From Desulfovibrionaceae bacterium (GTDB taxonomy: Bacteria; Desulfobacterota; Desulfovibrionia; Desulfovibrionales; Desulfovibrionaceae): a DNA stretch of 64,000 bases. Within the stretch, counting starts at the first letter, position 1. Each line of letters starts with the position of its first letter. Below, piece by piece: positions 10,824-12,527 of this stretch. Under the pieces are notes generated by a model. It saw only the letters and a list, made by a program, of their open reading frames with translations. It made no database searches and was not told the DNA's origin. The position numbers and the translations under genes were made by a program. Where the stretch lies: positions 1 through 64,000 of the forward strand of contig JAVHLG010000016.1 in NCBI GenBank assembly GCA_031082225.1, read 5' to 3'.

Positions 10824-11390
10824 CTACCGCACCAGGTAGGCGTTGTCCTCGCCGTCGAGTTCGACTAGGTGCACGTCCACGTGTTCGCCCAGGGCGGTCT
10901 GGACGCGTTTTCCCACGTAGTCGGCCTGGATGGGAAGCTCCCGGTGTCCCCGGTCGATTAAGACCAGAAGCTCCACCTTGCGCGGGCGGCCGTAGTCCAG
11001 GATGGCCTCCAGGGCGGCCCGGATGGTGCGGCCGGAAAACAGCACGTCGTCCACCAGGACGATTTTCTTGTCGTTGATGTCGAAGGGGATGAAGGTCTCG
11101 CCGATGTGCGGCTGGTTGTCGGAGTGGGTCCAGTCGTCGCGGTAGAGGTTGATGTCCAGCTTGCCGGACAGGATGTCGCAGCCCAGGCGTCCTTCCAGGA
11201 CCGTTTTCAGGCGCTGGGCCAGCTCCACGCCCCGGCGCTGGATGCCGATAAGCGCCAGGCCGCAGCCCTGGTCATGGCGCTCGATGATCTCGAAGGCCAG
11301 GCGTTCGATGGTCCGGACCATGTCTTCGGCCGAGAAAATGCGTCGCTGTCTCTTCATGGCGGTCCCCGCTGGCGCGCTTTGCTGTGTCAT
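10824..11390 (-). CDS. pyrR: PyrR: bifunctional pyr regulator / uracil phosphoribosyltransferase
   Basis: Type I phosphoribosyltransferase fold with the PRPP-binding motif KIVLVDDVLFSGRTIRAAL. Together with GIQRRGVELAQRL and LYRDDWTHSDNQPHI this identifies PyrR rather than a generic PRTase. In Gram-positives PyrR attenuates pyr mRNA; in deltaproteobacteria the regulatory role is less certain. 188 aa from the first ATG; the ATG at 11357 (MKRQRRIF, after 11 residues) is an alternative start that better matches the family N-terminus. Convergent with argB. Confidence 0.9.
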   Translation of the reverse strand: MTQQSAPAGTAMKRQRRIFSAEDMVRTIERLAFEIIERHDQGCGLALIGIQRRGVELAQRLKTVLEGRLGCDILSGKLDINLYRDDWTHSDNQPHIGETFIPFDINDKKIVLVDDVLFSGRTIRAALEAILDYGRPRKVELLVLIDRGHRELPIQADYVGKRVQTALGEHVDVHLVELDGEDNAYLVR

Positions 11391-11740
11391 GGTGCGTCGA
11401 TCCTAGCGGAAAAGGCCGGGGCGGGCAATGTCCGGGCGGGCGCGCTACGGCTGCCACAGCCCCCGGGTGCGCGGTCACTTCGCGTGCTCCCTTACGCGGT
11501 CATGTCCATGTGTCCTTGGCATGTCCTCCAGGGATTATACCGACCAGGACAGGGCCGGGGAGGGCGTATCCCGGCCAGGGCATGTCCCGGCCAGGGATTG
11601 ACCCGGCCAGGGCGGCCCGCAGGGCGGCCGACCGGGCCGTCCGGGGCCTTGCCGGGGCGGGGATTTCTCCTGTTTGACAAAGCCCCGGGCCATGCTTACT
11701 TACGGGCCTCAGCCAATTTTGCCCCAGGAGGTCGTCAGAC
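11391..11740. repeat. intergenic region with three 11-bp repeats on a 16-bp period
   Basis: This 350-bp gap between divergent pyrR and the HesB-like gene contains CCCGGCCAGGG at 11570-11580, 11586-11596 and 11602-11612, an exact 16-bp period. Degenerate copies may precede it (GACCAGGACAGGG near 11543). It lies about 130-170 bp upstream of the HesB-like start. No gene was found here. Confidence 0.5.
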
Positions 11741-12085
11741 ATGGTCGAAATCACCGAGGCCGCCCGCCGCGAACTTGACGGGTATTTCGCGGACAAGGAA
11801 AAAGCCCCCATTCGCATCTATCTCTCCGCCGGAGGATGCTCCGGCCCCCGGCTGGCCCTGGCCCTTGACGAGGCCAAGGACACGGATGATTTATTCGACG
11901 TGGACGGGTACAATTTCATCGTGGACAAGGAATTGTCCGCCCAGGCCGCTCCCATGCGCGTGGACATGTCCTATATGGGCTTCACCGTGCAGTCGAGTCT
12001 GCAGCTTGGCGACGGCGGCTGCGGCTGCTCCGGCGGGTCGTGCTCCTCCGGTTCCTGCGGCACGCCCGGCTCCTGCTGCTCATAA
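11741..12085 (+). CDS. HesB/IscA-like protein with Cys-rich tail (Cys form)
   Basis: Small (114 aa) A-type-carrier-like protein. Cys33 (GGCSGPRLAL) is the position of the first conserved Cys of HesB/IscA proteins. The C-terminus is a run of Cys, Gly and Ser (CGCSGGSCSSGSCG...CC), unlike the CGC motif of classical IscA. A role in Fe-S or thiol/metal chemistry is inferred, not shown. SD CAGGAGG precedes the ATG. It is the tandem paralogue of the next gene, where position 33 is encoded by UGA. Confidence 0.85.
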   Translation: MVEITEAARRELDGYFADKEKAPIRIYLSAGGCSGPRLALALDEAKDTDDLFDVDGYNFIVDKELSAQAAPMRVDMSYMGFTVQSSLQLGDGGCGCSGGSCSSGSCGTPGSCCS

Positions 12086-12149: not shown

Positions 12150-12470
12150 ATGATCGAACTCACCGAAGCCGCCCGCCAGCAGTTGGACGGGTATTTCGCC
12201 GACAAGGAAAAAAATCCCATCCGCATCTATCTCGCCTCCGGCGGTTGAGCCGGACCCAGGTTGTCTTTGGCTCTGGATGAGCCGAAGGAATCCGACGAAA
12301 AATTCGACACCGACGGGTACCTGTTTGTCGTGGACAAGGAATTGTTCCAGCAGGCCGGTTCCATGAAGGTGGACATGACGTACATGGGCTTCACCGTGCA
12401 GTCGGGCCTTGAGCTTGGCGGCGGCGGGTGCGGCGGCTCGTGTTCGTCGAGTTCGGCGTGCTCCTGCTGA
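12150..12470 (+). CDS. HesB/IscA-like selenoprotein (UGA at codon 33 read as selenocysteine)
   Basis: Reading from the ATG at 12150 (SD AGGAGATACAG), the frame meets TGA at 12246-12248 and then stays open to the TGA at 12468-12470, giving 106 aa. Both sides of the UGA match the upstream paralogue closely (DGYFADKEK before; SLALDE, DGYLFVVDKEL and YMGFTVQSGLELG after), and the UGA falls exactly at paralogue Cys33. A hairpin suited to be a bacterial SECIS lies just downstream. HesB-like selenoproteins are a known family in Sec-using prokaryotes. An automated annotation would call this a pseudogene or a shortened ORF starting at 12261. The Cys-rich tail is CGGSCSSSSACSC. selA/B/C/D are not in the window. 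Confidence 0.9.
12250..12276 (+). promoter_or_regulatory. candidate bacterial SECIS hairpin
   Basis: Starts 1 nt after the UGA codon. CCGGA (12250-12254) pairs with TCTGG (12272-12276), one C/C mismatch, then CCAGG (12256-12260) pairs with TTTGG (12266-12270), with three G-U pairs overall. The apical loop UUGUC contains the GU expected for SelB binding, 13-17 nt after the UGA. The Cys-coding paralogue does not keep this stem at the same place. Confidence 0.7.
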
Positions 12471-12492: not shown

Positions 12493-12527
12493 CAGGCGAT
12501 ATCCGCAAGGATATCGCCTGTTTTTTT
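12493..12527 (+). terminator. Rho-independent terminator after the HesB pair
   Basis: Perfect 12-bp stem (CAGGCGATATCC at 12493-12504, GGATATCGCCTG at 12509-12520) with a GCAA tetraloop and seven T. It ends the HesB-like transcription unit 22 nt after the selenoprotein stop. Confidence 0.95.

Follow-up and report, generated by a model that had tools for sequence, protein, structure and literature searches.

The analysed window, a 64,000-nucleotide stretch from the genome of a sulfate-reducer-type bacterium of the Desulfovibrionaceae, almost certainly encodes at positions 12150-12470 a selenoprotein of the HesB-like family, with its SECIS element at 12265-12287. The gene is the second member of a tandem pair in which one copy has a selenocysteine (Sec) codon where the other has a cysteine codon. 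The features of the locus are listed below by position and strand.

10824-11390, minus strand: PyrR-like phosphoribosyltransferase gene, the divergent neighbour; by tblastn it adjoins HesB genes across the family
11726-11731, plus strand: Shine-Dalgarno-like AGGAGG upstream of the Cys gene, read from the sequence
11741-12085, plus strand: tandem HesB/IscA-like paralogue with Cys33 (TGC at 11837-11839); 122.2 bits with NF038090
12137-12142, plus strand: Shine-Dalgarno-like AGGAGA, 7 nt upstream of the ATG of the Sec gene, read from the sequence
12150-12470, plus strand: putative HesB/IscA-like selenoprotein gene, 106 aa with Sec33; matches NF038090 and PF01521
12246-12248, plus strand: in-frame UGA, the predicted Sec codon 33, in the motif U-A-G-P and aligned to Cys33 of the paralogue
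12250-12276, plus strand: hairpin of the preliminary description, unsupported as a SECIS (unconserved; violates the spacing and loop-G rules)
12265-12287, plus strand: predicted bacterial SECIS hairpin with a 9-bp stem, the loop UGGAU at 12274-12278 and a UGA-loop spacing of 25 nt
12493-12520, plus strand: intrinsic-terminator-like hairpin with a T run downstream, closing the Sec/Cys pair; a consensus match only, from a consensus scan

A HesB-like reading frame continues through an in-frame UGA

When TGA is translated as Sec, the reading frame runs from the ATG at 12150 through the UGA at 12246-12248 to a terminal TGA stop at 12468-12470. The product matched the model NF038090 (IscA_HesB_Se) over its full length with 125.8 bits, against a curated cut-off of 85, and Pfam PF01521 with 34.1 bits, against a gathering cut-off of 26.3 that the Cys copy likewise exceeds. 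Its scores fell below the cut-offs of TIGR01911 (HesB_rel_seleno; 34.8 bits, cut-off 66.35) and of the IscA, SufA, and ErpA equivalogs (28.1, 25.7, and 25.0 bits against 150.6, 136.2, and 117, respectively), and a search of viral contigs returned no relative. The terminal TGA at 12468-12470 is unlikely to be an additional Sec codon, because the Cys-rich tail stops there in the paralogue as well and the terminator-like hairpin follows at 12493.

The preliminary description of this DNA had claimed a HesB-like selenoprotein masked by an in-frame UGA, with the UGA in place of the Cys of the tandem paralogue and with homology picking up again immediately past it. All of this held. The UGA aligns to Cys33 of the 11741-12085 gene, and the two proteins align without a gap on both flanks of it (72% identity, 65 of 90 residues, E 7e-51), while the family match, the Sec machinery, the conservation of the UGA, and a SECIS found only in the UGA copies speak for the selenoprotein itself. 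A family match was detected in 194 of 199 genomes of the order, and the fetched loci provided 188 distinct homologous genes, which carry at this codon either UGA (87 genes), TGC or TGT (86), or something else (15). The 173 distinct genes with Sec or Cys at the codon 33 position, mostly from Desulfovibrionaceae, constitute the Sec/Cys set referred to below. Both congeners of the window genome have UGA at the same codon. Nei-Gojobori comparisons with these two congeners, which are rough because few sites are available, gave omega values of 0.10 and 0.29 before the UGA and of 0.37 and 0.22 after it, suggesting in a rough manner that purifying selection acts on both sides of the codon.

The genome from which the window was taken (4.08 Mb in 150 contigs, nearly complete) contains all four of the genes that the preliminary description had named as a check: selA, selB, and selD were found by genome search with 609, 380, and 331 bits, respectively, and the tRNA-Sec gene, selC, scored 84.2 bits in Rfam and was called tRNA-SeC with the anticodon TCA (UCA) by ARAGORN. 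As the Sec machinery is complete, the objection that this genome might lack it does not hold. The selD gene (L010, G000:C124:10828-11754) has an internal UGA of its own near the start, with a strong fold 3’ of the UGA (z -4.9). A UGA near the start of selD is known in other selenophosphate synthetases.

The probable SECIS element is a strictly conserved hairpin at 12265-12287

The published bacterial SECIS model (PMC13188914) has an apical loop of 3-9 nt, a stem of 4-16 bp, a G in loop position 1 or 2, a spacing of 16-37 nt from the UGA, and a minimum free energy of at most -7.5 kcal/mol. The hairpin at 12265-12287 agrees with this model throughout, having a 5-nt loop that has G as its second base, a 9-bp stem, a 25-nt spacing, and a folding energy of -14.8 kcal/mol (z -4.9). 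Its core is GGCUC-UGGAU-GAGCC, and nine pairs form in the window gene. Within the Sec/Cys set, the core GCTCTGGAYGAGY is present in 87 of 87 Sec genes versus 0 of 86 Cys genes (Fisher p 1e-51, a value that counts kin genes as independent and concerns a motif chosen after the alignment was viewed). The two groups differ in this way even though the stretch codes for almost identical peptides in both. In a codon-by-codon comparison, codons 41, 42, and 44 were GCT, CTG, and GAG in every one of the 87 Sec genes; Cys genes encoding the same Ala-Leu-Asp-Glu residues use several synonymous codons at the positions of the SECIS core. The five apical pairs (12269-12273/12279-12283) are kept in all 49 non-redundant Sec sequences; two of these have U-A in place of a G-C pair, a compensatory change, and eight have G-U variants. 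Among the same 49 sequences, 100% of the cells of the apical stem are paired, compared to 16-45% in slid controls. A covariance model trained on 46 sequences from outside the window’s genus found its best match in the whole genome at 12246-12293 (58.8 bits, E 5e-12) and gave the Cys paralogue at 11741-12085 just 23.5 bits, with non-standard (broken) stem pairs. The second-best match in the genome was a divergent third HesB-like gene, which had been absent from model building and thus serves as an independent check. An Rfam scan at a relaxed threshold placed no SECIS family over the Sec gene, a result that is uninformative as to the presence of a SECIS.

The position of the element differs from that of the preliminary description, which had drawn the SECIS at 12250-12276 and had suggested a fold of 12246-12290 as a check. 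A stem of 10 pairs with one mismatch is possible there in the window sequence, and one local fold (12243-12285) does draw it, whereas the minimum free energy folds of longer stretches (12236-12290 and 12246-12290) are both dominated by the later hairpin, at about 12264-12288. The loop at 12250-12276 begins 12 nt past the UGA, with G as its third base, and so contravenes two rules of the bacterial model (PMC13188914). Nor is this hairpin conserved: it pairs in 66.5% of cells across the 49 non-redundant Sec genes, 452 of 500 shuffles pair as highly, and its pairing is about as frequent in Cys genes as in Sec genes. A genuine selenoprotein gene served by the 12250-12276 hairpin is therefore very improbable, and the comparative evidence places the putative SECIS at 12265-12287 instead. 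So relocated, the strictly conserved hairpin offers a precise SECIS for studies of SelB in Desulfovibrionaceae.

These data also bear upon whether the UGA might be a genuine stop, left by pseudogene formation or a sequencing error with the Cys copy alone functional, which the frame broken under the standard code and the adjoining intact Cys paralogue could suggest, but which is practically out of the question given the same-codon UGA of 87 distinct genes, those of both congeners among them (already a refutation), the purifying selection that appears to persist downstream, the SECIS core kept at silent sites, and the complete Sec machinery. Chance or a single-base error is rejected likewise, with UGA at the same codon in the two congener genomes plus another 84 distinct genes of the Sec type.

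A divergent third HesB-like gene has its own UGA and hairpin

The third HesB-like gene of the genome (L144:1411-1764, contig C62) is a 117-residue ORF with a UGA at codon 57, within TPG-U-FGPRLGLVLDEP. It scores 35 bits with NF038090, which is below the cut-off, and automatic annotation may therefore miss it. Its hairpin, GGUUC-UGGAC-GAACC, has the same 25-nt spacing as the window SECIS and differs from that of the window gene in the middle pair, which is U-A rather than C-G. Orthologues are present in the two congeners, and a more distant one (38% identity) occurs in a different genus of the same family (L154, L155, and L156); all three have kept both the UGA and a hairpin of the GGUUC-UGGAC-GAACC type. 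The gene lies upstream of one that, judged from its sequence alone, encodes a 4Fe-4S protein with a twin-arginine signal.

Predicted structure and function of the Sec protein

The AlphaFold model of the Sec protein has a pLDDT of 80.6 and a disordered tail. Its best Foldseek matches are the IscA structures 1x0g, 1r94, and 1s98 and the SufA structure 2d2a, with an E value of 2.4e-7 to 1x0g and a TM score of up to 0.74 (to 1s98), which assigns the model to the A-type fold of IscA/SufA. Solved relatives that can be aligned with the protein include 1nwb, 1r94, and 1s98. Among 34 aligned proteins, C94 never varies and C98 hardly does; because the C-terminal tail that contains both has a pLDDT <50, the three-ligand site is not visible in the model. 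In the alignment, residue 33 occupies the place of the first ligand cysteine of IscA, which has three such cysteines.

In the mechanism that we propose, SelB and Sec-tRNA(Sec) would decode the UGA at codon 33 on a ribosome that meets the hairpin at 12265-12287. Sec33 would then replace the Cys that serves IscA-type proteins as the first of their three ligands for a cluster or metal, and it may cooperate with two cysteines in the flexible tail, C94 and C98. The Cys copy would perform related work by sulfur chemistry, possibly under selenium shortage.

Most likely the Sec protein carries Fe-S clusters or metal, or else it is a thiol/selenol redox protein built upon the A-type fold; for a carrier role alone we would put the chances at roughly even. 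One consideration is that, apart from the tandem copies and the third gene, a PF01521 search of the genome turned up no A-type carrier (IscA, SufA, ErpA), so the HesB-like proteins may be the only ones that it has. The competing view, to which we give clearly less than even chances while still taking it seriously, is that the protein merely uses the A-type fold and is a selenol redox protein or a metal- or metalloid-binding protein instead of a cluster carrier. Most uncharacterized selenoproteins are thought to be redox-active, and the function of the HesB-like ones is unknown (PMC13188914, PMC11097638). In Methanococcus maripaludis, mutagenesis and 75Se labelling identified a HesB-like protein as a selenoprotein; since its disruption mutant still fixed nitrogen and its function there was unclear (PMC11097638), a carrier role is uncertain. 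However, with no other A-type carrier found in the genome, the HesB-like kind should be the one to do the carrier work. Residue 33 and the two tail cysteines also match the IscA ligand pattern.

Cys copies probably arose repeatedly beside the Sec gene

Once duplicates are removed, Sec and Cys genes occur together in 69 of 96 loci. Their order is Sec-Cys in 54 of these and Cys-Sec in 12, which include the window’s genus, and the other 3 loci have extra Cys copies. In most loci whose flanks are long enough, tblastn places a pyrR-like gene near the HesB genes, in divergent orientation; the tandem Sec/Cys pair beside pyrR extends through most of the Desulfovibrionaceae. A response regulator gene and an HD-GYP gene come next in some genera, as they do in the window. 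The neighbour at 10824-11390 is presumably PyrR-like, a name given from sequence resemblance. 

Trees of the pair, computed from only 89 columns with codon 33 and the tail left out, group Sec and Cys genes by lineage, each Cys copy with the Sec copies of its own lineage. Three Sec and three Cys genes from the window’s genus make up a single group (support 96/80), and a 54-gene set requires 15 changes between the Sec and Cys labels. One ancient Sec/Cys split with a single Sec clade was rejected (AU test, p-AU 6e-50, 89 columns). The simplest reading of these trees is that Cys copies were repeatedly born in tandem from the Sec gene, gene conversion being the main alternative. According to the latter, there was one ancient Cys/Sec duplication, and conversion has since mimicked the pairing by lineage. 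The occurrence of the pair at the same site beside pyrR throughout the family fits such a history, and conversion too would make the copies of one genome alike, but the order of the genes varies by lineage (54 loci Sec-Cys versus 12 Cys-Sec), the SECIS core is found in no Cys copy, and the single Sec clade is rejected at p-AU 6e-50 over 89 columns. We therefore regard the ancient duplication as rather unlikely and favour the repeated birth of Cys copies.

Other residues are also found at the Sec/Cys position. In Solidesulfovibrio, the tandem includes a third HesB-like copy in which the residue is Asp, Glu, or Ala while the CGGxC tail is intact (L110:4892-5203, L111:5017-5328, L035:1973-2287, and similar), and another genus (L072, L074) has a tandem copy with Ser. 

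A broader and more doubtful proposal would be that the HesB-like Sec gene of the Desulfovibrionaceae repeatedly gave rise to Cys copies in tandem as well as, in Solidesulfovibrio, to the Asp/Glu/Ala copy, such that Sec, Cys, and ligand-less carrier forms are kept side by side and may divide their tasks according to how much selenium is available or to the redox potential of the cluster that they bind. If this speculative scheme were true, the bound cluster of the Sec form would be a natural selenolate-ligated Fe-S centre.

Comparison with known systems

HesB-like selenoproteins have been catalogued for twenty years without an assigned function. A Sec/Cys pair at one conserved spot in culturable bacteria would permit a same-cell test of what selenium adds, and the tandem is a ready comparison of the two chemistries. 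Among the open-access papers searched, none was found to describe a family-wide tandem Sec/Cys HesB arrangement.

The family itself has been known since the 2000s and has a curated NCBI model. In the portions of the sources consulted, DVU_1382 of D. vulgaris is described as belonging to a TGA-containing HesB family (PMC1914089), proteins of D. vulgaris and D. desulfuricans are counted among the HesB-like selenoproteins (PMC1794560), and such proteins are reported in Desulfovibrio, Geobacter, Syntrophobacter, and others (PMC1794560, PMC1914089). As the family has already been described, the window gene adds a member rather than a new kind of protein. Likened by these descriptions, the DVU_1382 and D. 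desulfuricans proteins are HesB-like selenoproteins of the same kind, and those portions of the papers make no mention of a tandem Cys partner. The IscA/SufA/ErpA carriers have the Pfam family and the predicted fold in common with the window gene, but they have Cys where it has Sec33; the window gene is far below their equivalog cut-offs and has a longer, Cys-rich tail. TIGR01911, which covers HesB-like selenoproteins of methanogens, for example, shares with it the fold family and the UxGP motif, listed as a family motif in PMC13188914, although the window gene scores below the cut-off of that model. With NF038090 (IscA_HesB_Se), the window gene has in common both the full-length match and the Sec/Cys position, and nothing excludes its membership in this family.
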